IMG/VR virus record: IMGVR_UViG_3300017917_002495
Coordinates: 1-44,539 of that record
Reading direction: 5' to 3' (one strand)
DNA length: 44,539 nucleotides
DNA from: a virus
The notes beneath the pieces were generated by a model. It saw nothing but the letters and a program-made list of their open reading frames with translations. It did no database searches and was not told where the DNA came from. A program made the position numbers and the translations under genes. This document shows positions 3,833 to 43,238 of this stretch, in pieces; within the stretch, counting starts at the first letter, position 1; the number at the start of each line of letters is the position of its first letter.

Positions 3833-4423
3833 TTATCCAAAAATATGGTCTGCTATACCTAATTCGACTACTTCGGCTGCACTGAGGTAAACATCACTGG
3901 CAGGCAGTAATTTACTCCTAATCTTTGAAGGTGCAAGACCAGTAGCTGTTTTTAGAATATCTACCATTCGCTGATTGCACAATTCTCCGTCGCGCATAGT
4001 GGCTTTTAGATCGTGATGCTTGCCGCTGAGGTTATCAGAATATTGGTGTATCATAAAACTAGTATTCTTAGCAGCATGTCTCTCACCTTTCGTACCTGCT
4101 GCAAAAATTAAGAATGCGGCACTCATGACTGCACCTATACCTATGACTCTGATCGGATGACTACTCTGTTGCATGACATCTATCAAGGCAAATGCCTGAT
4201 ATAAGTCTCCGCCCATAGAGTTTATATAGAGAGTGAGGATTTTTTCTTTGGAGTCTAAATTTTCATAGACCAACCATTTTATACATTCTCCTACTGTGTC
4301 CTCATCTATTTCTCCCTGTAAAAAATGTACAGAGTTTTCGAGCAGTTTTAAATTTACTCGATCTTCGGCATTAAAATCGTCGATTTTTTTCACGGTTCGT
4401 TCCTGGATATGATTACTTATCAT
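3833..4423 (-). CDS. clpP: ClpP-type serine protease (196 aa)
   Basis: Length and motifs match the ClpP family. The catalytic triad is visible: Ser101 in GAVMSAAF, His126 in FMIHQY and Asp177 in PASDVYLSAAE. The glycine loop INSMGGDL (about 68-74) matches the oxyanion region. ClpP forms double heptameric rings that degrade substrates fed by ClpX or ClpA. T4-like marine phages are known to carry ClpP-like proteases, with proposed roles in host takeover or prohead maturation. The same window has ClpS and a tmRNA, which makes a role in directed proteolysis more likely. Substrate unproven. Confidence 0.85.
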   Translation of the reverse strand: MISNHIQERTVKKIDDFNAEDRVNLKLLENSVHFLQGEIDEDTVGECIKWLVYENLDSKEKILTLYINSMGGDLYQAFALIDVMQQSSHPIRVIGIGAVMSAAFLIFAAGTKGERHAAKNTSFMIHQYSDNLSGKHHDLKATMRDGELCNQRMVDILKTATGLAPSKIRSKLLPASDVYLSAAEVVELGIADHIFG

Positions 4424-13703: not shown

Positions 13704-13867
13704 CTTGGTTTACAAAGGTTAACTGATTTTATGCCGTTCAAACTAAAGGTTTGTATAAATTTTGCCATATCATCATTGACACTGATCATCTGAGCAGGCA
13801 TCATGAACTTGTATTGTAGCATCAACCATACACTATAGTCAATCCACCAATCTAGAGGAGTATACAT
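13700..13867 (-). CDS. Small hypothetical protein (55 aa)
   Basis: ATG at 13867 overlaps the stop of the cyclase gene (TAATG) and its own stop overlaps the S11 start (ATGA). The product has an aromatic, weakly amphipathic first half (LDWWIDYSVWLMLQYKF). No domain. The tight coupling is the main argument that it is real. Confidence 0.6.
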   Translation of the reverse strand: MYTPLDWWIDYSVWLMLQYKFMMPAQMISVNDDMAKFIQTFSLNGIKSVNLCKPR

Positions 13868-15954
13868 TATTTCTCGTGGGCTATAAATTCGCCATTCCAA
13901 TCATCGCCTAGATCCTGCTGTTTCATAAATGCACAGCGTTCAATCCACATCTTATAATACTTGTCCATTTGTCCGTCAAACGAGCCTTTTAATTCTCCGC
14001 AGAGTATTGCGGCTGCGTCAAATTGTTTTTCTTTGTATAACTGATGCATCTTATTATGTGTCTCCAGCGACTTGTAATAGGCAGTTTCATCACCTCTAAT
14101 TCTTAACACAGTATAGATAGAGTCTGCTACAGTTTTGCCTTTGGGCTGTAGATTGTCTAGATAGAGATAGAAGAAATCGTTGGCTGTTCTATTATAAGTC
14201 TCTGCGCCGATAATAGCCAATACTCCATAAGCCTTACAACGTGCTTCTAGTCGAGCAGCCGTTGATACCATGTCACCTAAGATATCATAACCATGACGAG
14301 CAGTTGATCCCATTTCACCTATATAACCATCACCTGTATTACAACCCCAGCCCATTGCCGCAGGTGGAAGTCCTAATGCTTCTTTTTCTTTAGTAAATGC
14401 CTGTACAGCATCTAGCATTTCTAGTCCAACTTTGACAATAGTATGTGCATGGTTAGGATCATCTAAGGGAGCACCATGCATGTGCATTGAAGCATCACCT
14501 ACATATTTGATAACCATGCCGTTGGCATTGATAATAGGAATGGTGATAGCATCCATGTAGCCGTTCATATATTTGGCCAGTCCTTCTGGGCCGCCATTGC
14601 CGGGTTTATCGAAGTGTTCGCCAATAGGTGTAAATCCACGTAGGTCTGAGAACATAACCGACACATCTTTCTTTGTGCCTTTCTTGATAAGATCCGGATT
14701 TTCTTGAAGAAGCCTAACAACTTCGGGAGAACAGTAACCTGCGAATTGTTTCTTGATAGCCTGTTTCTGTAGAAATTCACTTACAAATTTGACACCATAG
14801 GCATGCAGAGCGACCAATAGTAGGCCAACTCCAGGGGCAGTAGCGTCAAATAACCATAGAAAATGGTCGAACACAATAAAACTGCCAACAGCCATGCCAC
14901 CAACCAATACCACTGTTGCGATGAGACCTGCATATACATACCTCGTTAAAAATAATAATAGAATACCAGCGGCTGCAATTACAAATATTTCTAAACCGTC
15001 CGCATAGTCAGGACGTTGAATAACAACATTATTAAACATAGTTCCTAGTACCGCAGCTTGAACTTCGTGAGGCCAAATTGATCCCATGGCTGTTGGAACC
15101 GGATTACCTAAACCAGCAGCAGCCACACCCACTATAACCACAGCACCGCCGAAATCTTTAGGCAGTTCAGTCATTGACACTGACCGTGATTTCTGGCTCC
15201 AGTCGATCCACACACGACCTAGGTTGTCTGTTGTGATAGGACCAAACTTTGGTATGCGCATCTTTTCTACACCGTTGTCATTTAATTTAATTTGAACGGT
15301 CGAATCCTGTGCAGCCACACGCAGGGCTTCCATAGCAAGACTGGGATATATTTTTCCATCTACTGCTACCAACAACGGCATTCTACGATTCACTCCGTCG
15401 ATTTCCGGTAGTGTATTCACTATACCAACACCTGCGGCCTTTTGTTCTATGCTGCTTATATTAGCCATAATTCCAGGATATTGAATTATCCTGTCTTGAA
15501 AATCTGATCCTATGACTGCTGTTCCTGGTTGCTTTGCTTCGTTTTTATTTCTATCCGCAGGCATATTAGGCAGTATCACAGGGTACCTAGATAGTGTGTC
15601 TGCTAGAGCTCGATCTCCGCCTTGGCGATCTTTTTCAGTCATTAGTACATTAAACACAACCAACCCTGCATTTCTTAGATAAAGATTTTCTATGAGTGCT
15701 GCATATATTTCACGGTTAAATGGCCATTGTCCGTATTTGTCTAAGGCGTTTTCATCAATATTGACTGTAACAATATTATTTTCGGTCGGAAGTTTGTTTA
15801 CTATTAGAGTATCGAAATATCTTAATCTTATACTTTCTATAAAGACAGGATCAGCTATTCTTATACTTGTTACAAGTATAAGTGTTAATATTGCAGTCCA
15901 TGGACTTAAGATAATTTTTTTAAGGTTTACTTGCTTTGGAAGGGAGATCTTCAT
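13867..15954 (-). CDS. CHASE2-type membrane adenylate cyclase (695 aa)
   Basis: One N-terminal membrane helix, an extracytoplasmic CHASE2 sensor domain (about residues 35-300, including VNIDENALDKYGQWPFNREI), three membrane segments (about 305-385) and a class III cyclase domain. Metal-binding Asp residues are in FSDLRGF and YVGDAS, the adenine Lys in IKYVGD and the adenine Asp in YDILGD, so cAMP is the expected product. The transition-state Asn is replaced by Ser (GDMVSTAARLE), while the catalytic Arg is kept. It ends the envelope operon with CsgG and FecR proteins. Activity may be reduced. Confidence 0.85.
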   Translation of the reverse strand: MKISLPKQVNLKKIILSPWTAILTLILVTSIRIADPVFIESIRLRYFDTLIVNKLPTENNIVTVNIDENALDKYGQWPFNREIYAALIENLYLRNAGLVVFNVLMTEKDRQGGDRALADTLSRYPVILPNMPADRNKNEAKQPGTAVIGSDFQDRIIQYPGIMANISSIEQKAAGVGIVNTLPEIDGVNRRMPLLVAVDGKIYPSLAMEALRVAAQDSTVQIKLNDNGVEKMRIPKFGPITTDNLGRVWIDWSQKSRSVSMTELPKDFGGAVVIVGVAAAGLGNPVPTAMGSIWPHEVQAAVLGTMFNNVVIQRPDYADGLEIFVIAAAGILLLFLTRYVYAGLIATVVLVGGMAVGSFIVFDHFLWLFDATAPGVGLLLVALHAYGVKFVSEFLQKQAIKKQFAGYCSPEVVRLLQENPDLIKKGTKKDVSVMFSDLRGFTPIGEHFDKPGNGGPEGLAKYMNGYMDAITIPIINANGMVIKYVGDASMHMHGAPLDDPNHAHTIVKVGLEMLDAVQAFTKEKEALGLPPAAMGWGCNTGDGYIGEMGSTARHGYDILGDMVSTAARLEARCKAYGVLAIIGAETYNRTANDFFYLYLDNLQPKGKTVADSIYTVLRIRGDETAYYKSLETHNKMHQLYKEKQFDAAAILCGELKGSFDGQMDKYYKMWIERCAFMKQQDLGDDWNGEFIAHEK

Positions 15955-25595: not shown

Positions 25596-27494
25596 TTAGT
25601 CTTTTTTCTCCGTAAAGGTAGCATCGACTACATTGTCATCGTTTGGCGAAGCTTGGGATTGGGCAGTTGTTGCCTGCTCTTTAACTTGCCTTTTTTCCAA
25701 CAATATTTTCATTGCCGGATAAACTTTTTCAAGTTCTGATTTGATCTTATCAGTGTCATCACTTTTTGCTGCTTCTCGGACAGCAGCAATAGCAGATTCA
25801 ATTTCAGACTTTTCAGTTTCGGTGAGATCGTCTTTGAATTCTTCCATGTCGCGAGTAACTTCGTGAATGGTTGATTCTGCTTGATTCTTTGCTTCAATAA
25901 GTTCTCTAGACTTCTTATCTGCCTCTGCATTGGCTTCTGCATCTCTGATCATCTGTTCTATTTGTTCTTTGCTTAGACCGGAATCAGATTTGATTGTGAT
26001 TTTGTTTTCTTTGCCAGTGCCCTTGTCTTTGGCACTGATGTGCATGATACCGTTGGCATCGATATCAAAAGTAACTTCAATCTGAGGTTGTCCTCTACGT
26101 GCTGGCGCAATACCTTCTAAATTGAATTCGCCAAGCATTTTGTTATGCTGGCATAATTCACGCTCTCCCTGAAAGACCTTGATAGTCACAGCAGGTTGAT
26201 TGTCTTCTGCTGTGGAAAAAGTCTGAGTACCCTTGGTAGGAATGGTTGTGTTTTTCTGGATGATCTTAGCCATAACTCCGCCAAGCGTTTCAATACCTAA
26301 GCTCAACGGTGTAACATCTAAGAGTAAAACGTCTTTGCGATCACCACCTAGAACAGCACCTTGAATAGCTGCACCAACTGCCACAGCTTCGTCGGGGTTG
26401 ACATCTTTGCGAGGTGCTTTACCAAACAACTTTTCTACCTCTTCCTGTACCTTAGGCATACGTGTTTGACCGCCTACAAGGATGACTTCGTCGATGTCAG
26501 CAGGTGTTACTCCTGCATCCTGCATGGCAGTTCGACACGGTGCCAAAGATCTATTGATTAGATCTTCAACTAGGCTTTCTAGTTTGCTACGTGTAATCTT
26601 AACAACCAAATGTTTAGGACCACTAGCATCTGCTGTGATGTAGGGTAGGTTAACTTCTGTTTGAGAACTATTAGAAAGTTCAATCTTAGCTTTTTCAGCC
26701 GCATCCTTTAGACGCTGTAATGCCAACATGTCTTTGGTCAAATCAACACCTTGATCTTTTTTGAACTCATCTACTAGATAGTCCATGATGCGTTGGTCAA
26801 AGTCTTCACCGCCTAGGAATGTATCACCATTGGTTGATAATACTTCAATTTGTTTGTCGCCGTCGATGTTGGCGATTTCAATAATACTTACGTCAAATGT
26901 GCCGCCGCCGAGATCGTACACTGCTACTTTACGATCCTTGTTATCTTTCTTATCCACACCATAGGCCAAGGCCGCTGCTGTGGGTTCATTGATAATACGT
27001 AGAACTTCTAAACCGGCGATCTGACCAGCATCCTTGGTCGCCTGACGCTGCGAGTCATTGAAGTACGCCGGCACCGTGATCACGGCTTCGGTGACTTCTT
27101 CACCGAGATAATCTTCCGCAGTCTTTTTCATCTTGCGAAGAACTTCTGCCGAAATCTGTGGGGGTGCTAATTCTTTGTTCTGTGCCCTAACCCATGCATC
27201 TCCGTTTTTGCTTTCGAAAATTTCATAAGGCATAAGATCGAGATCTTTTTGCACAGCCTGTTCTTTAAACTTGCGTCCAATTAGACGCTTACTTGCATAA
27301 ATTGTATTTTTTGGATTAGTTACTGCCTGACGTTTCGCACTGGCACCAACTAAAATTTCATCGTTGGCGTAGGCAACGATACTAGGTGTGGTACGAGCAC
27401 CTTCAGAATTTTCAATAACTTTGGAAGTTCCATTTTCGACGATAGCCACGCAAGAGTTCGTGGTGCCGAGGTCAATACCGATGATCTTAGACAT
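25596..27494 (-). CDS. dnaK: DnaK (Hsp70) chaperone (632 aa)
   Basis: Full length compared with E. coli DnaK (638 aa). Begins [18 protein letters not shown] (ATPase phosphate loop), has [11 protein letters not shown] and [13 protein letters not shown], the hydrophobic linker [19 protein letters not shown], the substrate-binding domain and the end NVVDATF. It folds proteins by ATP-driven binding, normally with DnaJ and GrpE; neither is in this window, so host partners would be used. Ribosome site AAGGAG. Full-length DnaK is uncommon in phages. Co-directional with hsp20 and clpS. Confidence 0.95.
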
Positions 27495-28199: not shown

Positions 28200-29219
28200 T
28201 TATTTTAAGAATATATCATTGATCTGTCGATTAACTCTGACAAATGTGGTACATTTTGAAAGTTGTTTTAATGTTGGAGCACCCACATAGGTACAGGCAC
28301 TACGTAGGCCTCCAAGTAGGTCTAATACTGTGCGATTAACTGGTCCTTTGTAAGGTATTTCTACTGTTCGTCCTTCACTGCTACGATATTCAGCAACGCC
28401 ACCGTTATGCTTATTCATTGCTGTGTCTGAACTCATTCCATAAAATGTTACTTTACCATCTTCTACGGTTCCGCCACCTTCATCATGTCCTGCCAGCATA
28501 CCTCCTAGCATCACAAAGTCCGCGCCAGCCCCGAAAGCCTTACTAACATCACCAGGGCAAACACATCCGCCATCAGCAATAATATGAGCGCCAAGACCGT
28601 GAGCGGCATCGGCACACTCAATGATTGCACTAAGCTGTGGGTAGCCCACACCAGTTTGCACACGAGTAGTACAAACGCTACCAGGGCCAATCCCCACTTT
28701 AATAATATCTGCGCCACGTAAAATTAACTCCTGTGTCATATCCGCGGTAACAACATTACCAGCGATAATGGTGCAGTGAGGGAACGCCTCACGAACGTCT
28801 GCAACGTAATCACCAAAATGTTCTGAATAACCGTTGGCAACATCGATGCAGATAAAATGTATTTCTGGATATGCGTTAATAATCCTACTCAATCGTCTAA
28901 AATCATTTGAGTTCGTACCTGTACTAACGGCAAAATAATTGCCACCAATTTCTGTTACATAGTCAAATAAATCGTCTTCGGAATAGGTCTTAATCAAACA
29001 GGTGAACATTCTAAAATCCCATAATGACTTAGCCATAGACAGTGTACCAACACCGTCCATGTTAGAAGCCATGATAGGAATACCAGTCCATTCTGTTTGA
29101 CTGTGTTTAAACTTATAGGATCTTTGAAGATCTACTTCTTTGCGACTTGAAAGTGTAGAACGCTTGGGTCTAATCAGCACATCACGGAAGTCTAATTTGA
29201 CTTCGTCTTCGATACGCAT
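28200..29219 (-). CDS. guaC: GMP reductase / IMP dehydrogenase family (339 aa)
   Basis: TIM-barrel enzyme with the catalytic loop GPGSVCTTR (Cys183, close to Cys186 of E. coli GuaC), [14 protein letters not shown] and YGMSSDTAM. No CBS domains are inserted and the length (339 versus 347 aa) fits GMP reductase, which converts GMP to IMP with NADPH. This would shift purines during phage DNA synthesis. IMP dehydrogenase activity is the alternative but the length and loop favour GuaC. Ribosome site AAAGG. Confidence 0.85.
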
Positions 29220-35041: not shown

Positions 35042-35548
35042 TCAGCTATTCAATACCTTAGCAACACTATTCATTACTGCGGCAATACGACCGATGTCAC
35101 GAAGTTGTTCTACTGTGTAGCCTTCCTTCTTGAGCGTGTCGTAGTGTGCCTTAACACAGAAGTGACACTTGCCCACAATGCTTGCGGCCAAACTAAATGC
35201 TTCAAAGTTTGCCTTGGTAGTTCCACCGTGGCTTGCAATAGCGTTCATTCTAAGTTGTGCTGGCAAGCCCTTTAGTTGCTCGTCATCGGCCATTTCAACA
35301 TATGGATACCAAACGTTGTTCTGTGCCATAATGCTGGCGGCAGTCATTGCAGCATCTGCGTGTACAGGTGCGTCTGCTAACATAACTGCCAACACTTTAC
35401 CATTGCCAGTTGCGGCCAGTGCGGCTACAGCACAACCGTAGGCAACATCTCGGTCCAATGTGCTACGTTCTAATACAGCATCTAGATTTAGTTTTGTGTC
35501 TTTAGCGTACTCTGAAAGTGCGCCTTTGACTGTTTCAATAAAGCTCAT
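35042..35548 (-). CDS. ahpD: AhpD-like alkylhydroperoxidase (168 aa)
   Basis: Helical carboxymuconolactone decarboxylase fold with the redox centre SIVGKCHFCVKAH (Cys128, Cys131, His135). In mycobacteria AhpD passes electrons from lipoyl proteins to AhpC. The gene is in an operon with an AhpC of the matching type, so the pair should reduce peroxides. ATGA-coupled to the aldolase gene. Confidence 0.85.
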   Translation of the reverse strand: MSFIETVKGALSEYAKDTKLNLDAVLERSTLDRDVAYGCAVAALAATGNGKVLAVMLADAPVHADAAMTAASIMAQNNVWYPYVEMADDEQLKGLPAQLRMNAIASHGGTTKANFEAFSLAASIVGKCHFCVKAHYDTLKKEGYTVEQLRDIGRIAAVMNSVAKVLNS

Positions 35549-36204
35549 CCCTGTCTCCCTGAAGATAAAACGATCTTACAAATATGTTCTAGTCGTTCGA
35601 TATGTTCAAAGGCTCGCCATGGACTAGTGTCTATAGCTACTACACCGTGTCCTTTGATGCCCACTATATCATAAGCTATATTGCCTTCGCTGTCAAGTTG
35701 TAAATTCTCATGACAACGATCTGCTAGCTCTTGGCTGATAGGTGGAACATCAGGAACATTTGGTGCTACCTTTGTGTAACGGCTCAGTTCTGGAAAATCA
35801 TTTACTACAGTACTAAGATCGATACCGGCATGCATGGCAGCAACACAGTATGTAGGATGCAGGTGTACAACTACACGAACATCATCCCTGTGCTGTCCCA
35901 TCTCACGCTGTAGACCAAAATGTAGTGGAATCTCTCCACTGGGTCTTAGACCTACGCTGATATCGCTGTAAGGTAATACTTGCCAATCATAGACTGTTTT
36001 AACATCTGCGAAGTCTGTGCCTATGCTTTTCTTGATAGAAATCTTCTTGAACTGATCCGGCTGAAGTGTTTGCTTACGGACACCACTAGGAGTGATATAA
36101 AAGTGATCACGGTCGTGGTGCCGTATGCTGACATTACCATCGCGACTGGTGATCCAGTTACGTCGATAGGCTTCTACCAACGTTTCGCAGATGGTTTCTA
36201 ACAT
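35545..36204 (-). CDS. Class II aldolase/adducin family protein (219 aa)
   Basis: Zinc-site histidines are visible in VVVHLHPTY and in IKGHGVVA and AFEHIERLEH; SRDGNVSIR near residue 20 is the phosphate-binding loop. Family members cleave sugar phosphates (fuculose-1-P, ribulose-5-P) or dehydrate methylthioribulose-1-P. The exact substrate cannot be read. It lies between ahpC and ahpD with overlapping codons on both sides, an unusual place that suggests a joint role in stress or aldehyde metabolism. Confidence 0.8.
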   Translation of the reverse strand: MLETICETLVEAYRRNWITSRDGNVSIRHHDRDHFYITPSGVRKQTLQPDQFKKISIKKSIGTDFADVKTVYDWQVLPYSDISVGLRPSGEIPLHFGLQREMGQHRDDVRVVVHLHPTYCVAAMHAGIDLSTVVNDFPELSRYTKVAPNVPDVPPISQELADRCHENLQLDSEGNIAYDIVGIKGHGVVAIDTSPWRAFEHIERLEHICKIVLSSGRQG

Positions 36205-36755
36205 TACAGTGTCTCTCCGCCTACTGTACGATTACATGCACATAGCTCGCCAGTTTGTAGCGCATCAAGAACACGAAGTGTTTCTTCTGGGCTACGACCA
36301 ACGTTCAAGTTGTTGACAGTAACGTGTTGGATCACGTTGTCTGGATCAACAATGAATGTAGCACGTAATGCCGCACCTGCTGGCGCATAGAATACACCAA
36401 GCTGGTTGATCAGGCTTAGGTCTTCCATAGTATCGTCATTCCAACGTTGTGTATCAGCAAACTGGATATGTTTAATATTTCCTAGATCAGGATGTGCCTT
36501 TTGCCATGCTAGTTTACAGAACTCATTGTCTGTTGAACCTGTAAGCAATACAGCATCGCGATCTGCAAAATCTTGGAACAGTTTGTCGTAAGCAACAATT
36601 TCTGTTGGGCATACAAATGTAAAGTCTTTTGGATAGTAAACGATTACTTTCCATTTACCTGCGAAAGATTCGTCTGTGATCGTAAAGAAATCATCTTTAC
36701 CTGGATTTACGCCTGTTACGGCAAACTTTTCAATTTTATTACCAACTGTTTTCAT
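36204..36755 (-). CDS. ahpC: AhpC-type peroxiredoxin (183 aa)
   Basis: Peroxidatic Cys49 in FTFVCPTEI; the C-terminus ELCACNRTVGGETL carries Cys172 and Cys174, the two-cysteine tail known from mycobacterial-type AhpC that works with AhpD. Reduces peroxides and peroxynitrite. Strong ribosome site (AAAGGAGAG). A promoter (36810-36838) and a leader hairpin (AGGACT/AGTCCT at about 36788-36802) precede it. First gene of the three-gene operon. Confidence 0.9.
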   Translation of the reverse strand: MKTVGNKIEKFAVTGVNPGKDDFFTITDESFAGKWKVIVYYPKDFTFVCPTEIVAYDKLFQDFADRDAVLLTGSTDNEFCKLAWQKAHPDLGNIKHIQFADTQRWNDDTMEDLSLINQLGVFYAPAGAALRATFIVDPDNVIQHVTVNNLNVGRSPEETLRVLDALQTGELCACNRTVGGETL

Positions 36756-37548: not shown

Positions 37549-38328
37549 TTAGTATACCACGTGCTTGAAATAGGAAATTTCTTGATCAGATCCGCGAATC
37601 ACCCATTGTCCGTCTGTATCAACGATCCCCACAGGAGCGCAAGGATCTCCTTGATAAATTTCTCCATCGGTTTTGGTTGTAGTATCTGAACATACCGTAT
37701 AGAAATTTCCAAGAAAACTATTCATTTGTAAATTAGCTTCGCTCCATTTATAGTACAGCTGGTCTGGGCCTGCTTCTTTGATTTGATAGGCTCCAAGAAA
37801 TAAAATTTTAACATTGCTGTCTCTAATAAAACGCAGTAATTCACCGTGTTCTGGATGTTTAATCACCGGAGCCCAATAATCATTACATACTAGGGAAGAA
37901 ATCATGTGTCCTTTATAGTTGAGCAGAGGTGGAAGATAATTTCTCTGATGATAAAATCTAACATCTAATTCGGTTAATTGATTTTTTGAATATTCAAACA
38001 GTTCCTTGCCCCCCAATATAAATTTTTGACAATTAATCCAATTTTTTTCTTTATCAAACGCTGCTGTACCTAGAATTAAATCTACATTTTTGTCTTTAGA
38101 ATATTGTTTTAGGTCCTCGACACCGTCATGAATCTTTTTGATCCTAGGATCGTCCCAAGATTCCGGCTCCCACAAATATCCACTAAGGGCACATTCCGGA
38201 GTAGATAAAATCTCTACAGACTGTTCATTTGCCCAATCTATGGCTTTCTTTATTTCTATTAGGTTCTGATCTATATCTAAGGTGATTTTCAGCCTGCATC
38301 CGGCCACTGTGATAGGTTTTACATTCAT
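37549..38328 (-). CDS. Carbon-nitrogen hydrolase (nitrilase superfamily, 259 aa)
   Basis: The Glu-Lys-Cys triad is present: STPECALSGY (Glu45), YSKNQLTE (Lys115) and SSLVCNDYWAP (Cys148). The length is typical for stand-alone amidases of this family. It may hydrolyse an amide or nitrile and release ammonia, or act in a salvage pathway. Followed closely by the dioxygenase gene; preceded by the tmRNA terminator. Confidence 0.8.
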   Translation of the reverse strand: MNVKPITVAGCRLKITLDIDQNLIEIKKAIDWANEQSVEILSTPECALSGYLWEPESWDDPRIKKIHDGVEDLKQYSKDKNVDLILGTAAFDKEKNWINCQKFILGGKELFEYSKNQLTELDVRFYHQRNYLPPLLNYKGHMISSLVCNDYWAPVIKHPEHGELLRFIRDSNVKILFLGAYQIKEAGPDQLYYKWSEANLQMNSFLGNFYTVCSDTTTKTDGEIYQGDPCAPVGIVDTDGQWVIRGSDQEISYFKHVVY

Positions 38329-38358: not shown

Positions 38359-38385
38359 AAAAAAAAGGCTACCGAAGTAGCCTTT
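38359..38385 (-). terminator. Rho-independent terminator after the tmRNA
   Basis: AAAGGCTACTTCGGTAGCCTTT hairpin with a UUCG loop followed by eight T on the minus strand. Confidence 0.9.
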
Positions 38386-38394
38386 ACTATTTTT

Positions 38395-38712
38395 GGTTAC
38401 AAGGTATAGTTACCCCGGACTTGCAGTTTCTTAGGCTGCTAGTGCAACACGACCGCCTACTGTGTTACCAGTGAAGCTTAGTGCTGCAAAGTCAAATGAA
38501 TCGTCGTTTGCGATTACTTTTTTTGCGTCTTCGGCCGGGAATCCCCAACCCTACGGTTTCTGCCTTACCGTGCTGTCCACTTGTTTACTCTTTGCCCTGT
38601 CGAAACCTAATTCATCCCCACCTAAATATACAAACATACACTTAGGTGGAGATGCCGGGGTTCGAACCCGGGTCCAGAACACTTTTCTATCCGCTTCATA
38701 CAGCAATAACTT
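38395..38712 (-). ncRNA. ssrA: Circularly permuted (two-piece) tmRNA
   Basis: The acceptor half comes first: a T arm with CCGGG-TTCGAAC-CCCGG, then CATCTCC-A-CC ending at 38645. A 25-base spacer (38620-38644) follows, then the coding half from 38619 with GGGGATGAATTAGGTTTCGAC. GGGGATG pairs with CATCTCC and gives the G3-U70 pair used for alanine charging. The resume codon GCA (38511) follows GTAATC; the tag starts ANDDSFDFAALSF, ends GGRVALAA, has 26 residues and stops at TAA (38431-38433). ACAGC and GCTGT in the two halves can pair. Permuted tmRNAs occur in alphaproteobacteria, some cyanobacteria and some betaproteobacteria. The outer ends are approximate. Confidence 0.93.
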
Positions 38713-38714
38713 AC

Positions 38715-38743
38715 AGTATATATTTATTGTGACAGATTGTCAA
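38715..38743 (-). promoter_or_regulatory. tmRNA promoter, early type with embedded late octamer
   Basis: TTGACA (38738-38743), 17 bases, TATACT (38715-38720) on the minus strand; the spacer contains AATAAATA (38721-38728). The -35 box overlaps the stop of the Ntn hydrolase gene. Confidence 0.8.
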
Positions 38744-40300: not shown

Positions 40301-40375
40301 TGGTGCGCTAGATGGGAATCGAACCCACTAACCAGAGTTTTAGAGGCTCCTAACCGACCGTCGGTACTCTAGCGC
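40301..40375 (-). tRNA. tRNA with apparent CUA (amber suppressor) anticodon
   Basis: Seven-pair acceptor GCGCTAG/CTAGCGC, discriminator A and encoded CCA; T arm GTGGG-TTCGATT-CCCAT; five-base variable loop. The anticodon arm is GGAGC-CTCTAAA-ACTCT (a G-U pair, three normal pairs and a C-A mismatch next to the loop), which puts CTA at positions 34-36 after T33 and before A37. The D arm is unusual (three good pairs, A at position 8). The amino acid is not certain; no close relative was recognised. If CUA is right it reads UAG. Confidence 0.75.
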
Positions 40376-42137: not shown

Positions 42138-43238
42138 TTATATAGCCGGTAATTCTTCGTAGTCGATTTTTTCACTCATCACCCCGATGACATAATTGGT
42201 ACTTTCTGATTCTTGTAATGCTGTTTGTTTCTTACTAGTATCGCTGTGTTTATTAAACCATGGGATTGGAGTAGTTTTTGGTGCGGGTTGTTGATATCGA
42301 ATACCTATTTCTTTTAGACTAGTGGCTGCTGTATAATCTACAAAATCTTTGAGAATATTTGCATTAAGTCCAATAACCGGTCCTTTCTTGAAAAGATAGT
42401 CTGCCCATTCTTTTTCTTCTCGAATTACACTAAGATACATTTGATATACTTCTTGTTCACAATCTGCTTTGGCTTTGGCAAAACGAGGATCTTCTTTAAC
42501 CACTTGATTAATCATCCAAGCAGTCCATCCTTTGTGTAGTAGTTCGTCTTGCAGAATCAAACTGATAATGTTGCCATTACCAATAAAGATTTTATTCTCT
42601 ACCATTGCTAGTGATGTAGCAAATGAAACCATAAAGCGGAATGCTTCTAAGGCATAGCTGGCATGTAGCGCAAGATAAATCGCACGAATATGAGCCTCTT
42701 CGCTGTATTGTGATCCGATTTCTTTATGGCAATTAATTTCGTGTAGTTGATCGTAGTATTTGCCAACACTACTAGCCATGTTAACAATTTCCGCTGTGTC
42801 ATGGATGGTGTTAAAAACTTCTTTAGGCACATTATAGATGTTGCGAATAATATGGCTGTAACTACGACTGTGGATATTCGTTTCAAAGAATGTCCAGTTG
42901 TAGACTAGAGCTTCTAGTTCTGGTAGGCTTACGATCGGAGTAAAGATTTGGCTTGGGCCGCGGCCTTGCAGACTGTCAAGAGCAGTTTGCCTAAGCAAGT
43001 TACTAGTGAAGATATGTTTAACTGCATCAGATGCTTCCTTAAAATCTTGTGCATCTTTGGTCAATGAAATTTCTTCAGGTACCCAAAAGAAACCTCGGGC
43101 TGTTTTTTCAAAGTCTGCAATCTTGTTATATTTGACTTCTTCGAAACGTTGTATGGTAACTGGACCTGCTGGATCCAGGAACATTTTTCGTTGTAAGTAG
43201 TCTGTCTTTGTGTGTAGGTTGTATTGTTGTTTGCTCAT
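42138..43238 (-). CDS. nrdB: Ribonucleotide reductase class Ia small subunit NrdB (366 aa)
   Basis: Di-iron/tyrosyl radical protein: YALEAFRF (Glu204 equivalent), LQDELLHKG (Glu238 and His241), SRSYSHIIRN (radical Tyr122 equivalent) and a C-terminal tail for NrdA binding (DYEELPAI). In the first ligand helix the sequence is FETNIHSRS, one residue longer between Glu and His than in E. coli (SETIHSRS). Makes deoxynucleotides with NrdA. ATGA overlap with nrdA. Confidence 0.95.
   Translation of the reverse strand: MSKQQYNLHTKTDYLQRKMFLDPAGPVTIQRFEEVKYNKIADFEKTARGFFWVPEEISLTKDAQDFKEASDAVKHIFTSNLLRQTALDSLQGRGPSQIFTPIVSLPELEALVYNWTFFETNIHSRSYSHIIRNIYNVPKEVFNTIHDTAEIVNMASSVGKYYDQLHEINCHKEIGSQYSEEAHIRAIYLALHASYALEAFRFMVSFATSLAMVENKIFIGNGNIISLILQDELLHKGWTAWMINQVVKEDPRFAKAKADCEQEVYQMYLSVIREEKEWADYLFKKGPVIGLNANILKDFVDYTAATSLKEIGIRYQQPAPKTTPIPWFNKHSDTSKKQTALQESESTNYVIGVMSEKIDYEELPAI

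Follow-up and report, generated by a model that had tools for sequence, protein, structure and literature searches.

The peptide tags of tmRNAs are usually seen as degrons of about 10 residues that vary freely upstream of a terminal LAA. The IMG/VR virus record analyzed here, taken whole (44,539 bases; hereafter the window) and belonging to a freshwater-type phage, encodes a permuted tmRNA with a 26-residue tag. The locus raises the question of whether the additional residues are kept as a peptide, as RNA or through shared descent, and of what might read them.

Permuted tmRNA gene

ARAGORN calls only one tmRNA in the window, a permuted form on the minus strand (38736-38340) with the tag ANDDSFDFAALSFTGNTVGGRVALAA. 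The permuted covariance models by which the initial annotation proposed to check its claim agree: RF04321 (tmRNA_permuted) aligns to 38705-38431 on the minus strand with 122.8 bits against a cut-off of 47 (E 1.2e-23), and RF01850 (beta_tmRNA) to 38757-38362 on the same strand with 100 bits against a cut-off of 84. An alpha-, beta- or cyanobacterial type had been left open. RF01850 outscores the other models of its clan and no CCA is encoded, which identify the tmRNA as beta-type, although the message-part pairs of RF01850 fit it poorly. The gene comprises the following elements.

38715-38743, minus strand: promoter-like TTGACA-17-TATACT, sigma-70-like, 11 of 12 consensus bases (consensus match only)
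38645-38705, minus strand: first-transcribed tmRNA piece, T arm and 3' acceptor strand ending in ACC at 38647-38645 (RF04321 alignment)
38620-38643, minus strand: 24-nt intervening spacer (sequence and folding)
38431-38619, minus strand: second tmRNA piece, with 5' acceptor strand GGGGAUG, D-like GGUUUCGACAGGGC, pseudoknot region and tag frame (sequence and Rfam)
38431-38511, minus strand: tag frame ANDDSFDFAALSFTGNTVGGRVALAA and TAA, 26 codons
38446-38493, minus strand: tag extension DFAALSFTGNTVGGRV, 16 codons missing from 10-residue tags (comparison with tags of 10-13 residues)
38364-38385, minus strand: intrinsic terminator, 9-bp hairpin AAAGGCTACTTCGGTAGCCTTT followed by a T run (consensus match only)

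In the minus-strand sequence, the halves follow one another in permuted order, with the 3' acceptor half preceding the spacer and the message half. Pairing between the two acceptor strands, CAUCUCC (38654-38648) and GGGGAUG (38619-38613), is complete and includes G3-U70, as had been noticed at the outset, and the tag frame does begin with AND, end in LAA and span 26 codons. The promoter and terminator that had been ascribed to the gene correspond to the sites at 38743-38715 and 38385-38364, both of them consensus matches only. The gene-encoded 3' end is ACCU (38647-38644) rather than ACCA, and the terminal A must therefore come after processing, through completion of CCA; the beta consensus (RF01850) likewise lacks an encoded terminal A. 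The spacer and the acceptor strands of the precursor fold as a single 19-bp hairpin. Each of the 137 distinct relatives that were scored forms all seven acceptor pairs, and positions 4-69, 5-68 and 6-67 show compensatory changes; pairs 1-3 and 70-72, including the G3-U70 found in 137/137, are partly fixed by the search itself. By analogy with trans-translation elsewhere, the mature RNA would consist of two pieces and be charged with alanine. In three relatives (L016, L087 and L067), the tag as called has an additional VNA or VN at its beginning (VNANADTF...), which leaves the exact resume codon of those genes uncertain.

Genomic context

Neighboring and distant genes include the following.

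37549-38328, minus strand: carbon-nitrogen hydrolase (PF00795), next downstream of the tmRNA, and beside it in related phages too
42138-43238, minus strand: nrdB, at the beginning of a conserved nrdA-nrdB-glutaredoxin-PAAR-DUF454-tmRNA order
25596-27494, minus strand: DnaK chaperone, over the NCBIfam cut-off
3833-4423, minus strand: ClpP-like protease, best PHROG match a head maturation protease

Upstream of the tmRNA lie DUF454, PAAR, glutaredoxin-like, nrdB and nrdA genes; downstream, the carbon-nitrogen hydrolase is followed by AhpC, class II aldolase and AhpD-like genes. This phage gene order is conserved around the tmRNA in dozens of contigs, and viral contigs with relatives of the hydrolase gene have a permuted tmRNA at the equivalent place. 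Counterparts of NrdB in cultured phages reach no more than 61% identity, the best being that of Xanthomonas phage X1. At full length, blastn found no DNA similar to the window region in phage and plasmid records. Together with the conserved gene order, this supports the reading that the gene is not recent host contamination.

The window also codes for a CHASE2 and nucleotide cyclase protein and for IMP dehydrogenase; these belong, with DnaK, AhpC, the AhpD-like gene and the aldolase, to a set of host-like genes (25596-27494, 13867-15954, 28200-29219, 35042-36755). A tRNA-like gene found by Rfam only (40304-40375, minus strand, 35.2 bits) lies approximately 1.6 kb upstream of the tmRNA. Its anticodon loop, read from the alignment, is CUCUAAA, which would give the anticodon CUA and a possible amber suppressor. 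In Xanthomonas phage XacN1 (L261, L268, L273), permuted tmRNAs of equal score occur at two sites, the tag ANANTFDYALAA being read at one of them, and in each case two CTA-anticodon tRNAs lie approximately 1 kb upstream. When checked, an association of tmRNAs with amber-suppressor tRNAs did not prove to be general. A 77.7-kb contig of another phage (L026, from L004) encodes a relative of the window's 295-residue gene neighbor and, elsewhere, an alpha-type permuted tmRNA (RF01849, 112 bits) with the apparent tag ANDNFAPSKVSALVA; tmRNA type thus differs between related phages.

Tag length classes and the extended tag family

A search blind to the tag, with only the tRNA-like half as query, returned at least about 120 viral loci. 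Among the matches listed, 108 are permuted tmRNAs by ARAGORN, and their tag lengths are bimodal: 68 have 10-13 residues, 40 have 23-31, and none falls between 14 and 22. The long tags form set A, which includes that of the window, set B (for example AKANTFEYFQVPVTLATANDAEFAIAA), set C (ANANTTEAEVMTFVWDLPANESRYALAA) and set D (for example AKASTGEVTVSGKNVKFSARTAQRQSLAV). All but one of the 28 distinct long tags fit a single loose start motif, defined post hoc, and 16/28 finish as an ordinary NDxxFALAA-type tag, so that long tags can be read as an extension added to a standard tag. In family D, the last three residues are LAV or FAV in place of LAA. In a bacterial genome collection, the tag-blind pattern occurred in one contig only, a MAG with the tag ANDSTYALAA; the bacterial genomes sampled with RF01850 came from a MAG centre and were mostly without betaproteobacteria. 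Strict DNA patterns for permuted tmRNAs gave one match or none, because most relatives have the acceptor strands GGGCCUG/CAGGUCC and long spacers.

Long and short tags alternate at one shared genomic site. The RNA tree of the tmRNAs has poor resolution; it hints that tag classes have been swapped repeatedly, without establishing any such swap. Long tags occur in a few phage lineages, and no neighboring gene exclusive to them was isolated, since phage lineage coincides with tag class.

A query based on the tag alignment found the core DF[ST]AMSFTGN[ST]V...ALAA encoded with permuted tmRNAs in at least 121 IMG/VR contigs; of the 80 that were fetched, ARAGORN calls nearly all as permuted tmRNAs, and the tags have 26-33 residues. 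Five tmRNA-bearing relatives found through the gene neighborhood were selected without regard to the tag, and four of them (two near-identical contigs counting as one) also have a long tag, with the core DF[S/A/G]A[M/L]SFTGN[S/T]V...ALAA. The window tag fits the resulting family A, defined by DF[STAGK]A[ML][SN]FT[GS]N[ST]V, a variable spacer and an ALAA-type end. Within the extension, F, A, F-T-G-N and V are invariant across divergent tmRNA backbones. A scan of 84,980 bacterial and archaeal species genomes for family A only, requiring exact peptide-pattern matches, yielded 59 stretches that fit the pattern, none of them confirmed as a relative, and tblastn found no long-tag relative among 50,697 phage records. 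In 2.18 Mb of fetched DNA, consisting largely of the regions surrounding these tmRNA genes, the motif was likewise seen only within tmRNAs, which gives no support to a copying of the extension from a phage protein.

Neither a phage permuted tmRNA nor a 26-residue tag is new, since two-piece forms are known from phages and tags of 8-35 residues from bacteria (PMC8012679). What is new is the tag family to which the window tag belongs. The literature searched yielded no earlier description of extended conserved phage tags, and this extra-long, conserved and seemingly virus-only family is apparently undescribed before. The long tag that first drew attention to the locus is therefore real at 26 residues, but it is the mark of a conserved viral family rather than a single-gene oddity.

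Selection on the tag extension

Among 43 distinct family-A cores, pN/pS is 0.16 in the tag frame and 2.3 and 4.7 in the other two. Because the 80 family-A loci were picked by a peptide pattern, their apparent conservation as peptide is inflated, and the calculation was therefore repeated on the tag-blind and neighbor-found sets. Although these are small, the in-frame values are similar, at 0.25 for 11 distinct tag-blind sequences and 0.18 for five distinct neighbor-found sequences, with at least 1.6 in the other frames of each. As judged from these sequence comparisons, the extension is selected as a peptide. AlphaFold2 predicts no fold for the tag (mean pLDDT 62.6), and no binding mode is thus suggested.

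Clp proteases and adaptor proteins

Among contigs of at least 100 kb, a ClpA-like unfoldase (746-785 residues) is encoded in five of the six long-tag ones (L045, L090, L110, L154 and L198, not L225) and in one of eleven with short tags (L192); the association with tag class (Fisher p 0.005) is confounded by lineage and drawn from few related contigs. Genuine ClpP, scoring above 200 bits, has the same distribution in number, with 5/6 long-tag contigs (not L090) and 1/11 short-tag contigs (again L192). Both proteins are encoded in the same contig in L045, L110, L154 and L198, which are relatives. Because the contigs are few and related, lineage can explain the co-occurrence of ClpA and ClpP with long tags. 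NCBIfam ranks ClpA first for two large ClpA-like proteins, below its strict cut-off, and places one ClpP above a subfamily cut-off. ClpX-like proteins are found in two short-tag phages (L192 and L197); the six long-tag contigs have none.

The short-tag L192 contig (231 kb) encodes ClpX-like, ClpA and ClpP proteins together, and the ClpX-like protein of L280, a 114-kb contig of L197, has a zinc-finger-like N-terminus. Divergent ClpP-like matches in the contigs G012, G015, G017, G020, G460, G473, G474 and G479 contain one in-frame TAA or TAG each inside the matching segment, which may reflect overrun, a frameshift or recoding.

In the 44.5-kb window fragment itself there is no ClpA. Its ClpP-like protein resembles head maturation proteases and is not counted as a degradation protease; from its sequence, it probably functions in capsid processing. 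No SmpB was found in 18 phage contigs and no SspB in 22 records, and host SmpB is thus presumably used. No paper on a phage-encoded ClpP was found in the literature searched.

Proposed function and alternatives

The reading that we favor, and consider probable, is that the locus encodes a working two-piece beta-type tmRNA of a large phage, which relies on host SmpB and carries an ALAA degron with a virus-specific extension. Its own promoter would drive transcription, after which the RNA would be cleaved around its acceptor ends, completed with CCA and charged with alanine through G3-U70. With host SmpB, it would load on stalled ribosomes and append the 26-residue tag, an ordinary ALAA-type degron with the conserved extension placed before its end, and the tagged chains would then be degraded by Clp proteases. 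Such a tmRNA would fit ribosome rescue during the decay of host mRNA, in which case many tagged chains would be host proteins from messages destroyed during infection.

Several other readings must be weighed against this one. It may be that the tmRNA is an ordinary one whose tag has merely lengthened, the extra residues being idle and their conservation reflecting recent common ancestry. The 8-35-residue tags of bacteria (PMC8012679) and the alternation of long and short tags at one site are compatible with this, but changes in the extension are many when synonymous and few when they alter an amino acid, the invariant residues persist on divergent backbones, and tag lengths are bimodal, with a gap at 14-22 residues among the matches listed; we regard this reading as improbable. 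Message regions of tmRNAs are structured, and the extension could instead be kept for a stem or pseudoknot in the RNA, with the peptide as a by-product. Compared with column-shuffled alignments, the tag frame has a modestly better consensus fold (z -2.8). However, compensatory changes in this fold are almost absent, variation at wobble positions dominates in the extension and pN/pS exceeds 1 in the other frames, making an RNA role very unlikely.

The alternative that we take more seriously, while still thinking it unlikely, is that the extension acts against the host, evading or blocking a host adaptor or delaying degradation, so that ribosomes are freed and tagged proteins persist or bind elsewhere. 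The lack of detected SmpB (18 contigs) and SspB (22 records) in the phages, the LAV or FAV ends of family D and hydrophobic, strand-like stretches in the extension are consistent with such a role, but most long tags retain the terminal ALAA, and ClpA and ClpP co-occur with long tags. Finally, some bacteria typically have the beta-type permuted form, as would be expected of a host ssrA introduced by contamination or misassembly; the phage gene order around the tmRNA in dozens of contigs and the failure to find the tag in 84,980 bacterial and archaeal species genomes leave that explanation with hardly any credibility.

For the favored virus-specific degron, an addition of 16-21 residues that is kept as a peptide in many phages and is not found in the bacterial genomes searched implies a reader. 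The likely purpose of the extension would be to direct tagged chains to a chosen Clp protease, which in several long-tag phages could be phage-encoded ClpAP; phage ClpAP or ClpA is a plausible, if speculative, reader. The complete viral pathway, in which stalled chains are tagged by the tmRNA via host SmpB, then recognized through the extension and digested by a viral ClpA-ClpP pair, is conceivable but rather doubtful. If true, large freshwater-type phages would redirect trans-translation, recycling host proteins or removing defence proteins. Where phage ClpA and ClpP co-occur, the reason why phages carry tmRNAs becomes directly testable with purified parts.

Comparison with known systems

Bacterial ClpAP and ClpXP act on ssrA tags with the same ALAA-type end, and several long-tag phages encode ClpA-like and ClpP proteins. 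In contrast to the bacterial systems, the components here are virus-encoded, neither SspB nor SmpB was detected with them, and the extension has no described reader.

Permuted tmRNAs encoded by phages have been reported from the OM43 phage Melnitz and other marine phages; of 133 distinct tmRNAs in 402 phages, 53 were predicted to be in two pieces, and the authors of that report proposed ribosome upkeep or tagging of host proteins as their role (PMC9004378). The Melnitz tmRNA is alphaproteobacterial-type and accompanied by a glutamine riboswitch, whereas that of the window is beta-type with no riboswitch over the Rfam cut-off, and the main text of the report does not appear to mention an extended tag family such as that of the window (PMC9004378). 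A tmRNA database holds 79 phage sequences (PMC11915505). Experiments on phage two-piece tmRNAs were not found in the literature searched.

With the betaproteobacterial tmRNA (RF01850; merged into RF04321, PMC11915505), the window gene shares its order, its acceptor pairing, an end in ACC without the A and a tag frame ending in GCACUAGCAGCCUAA; it differs in the 16-codon insertion in its tag frame. The cultured phages XacN1, UF_RH6, QDWS595, PHB04, BUCT628 and X1 also have permuted tmRNAs over the Rfam cut-off, but with tags of 10-14 residues, unlike the 26 of the window. That of XacN1, ANANTFDYALAA, has the same beginning as the long tags.
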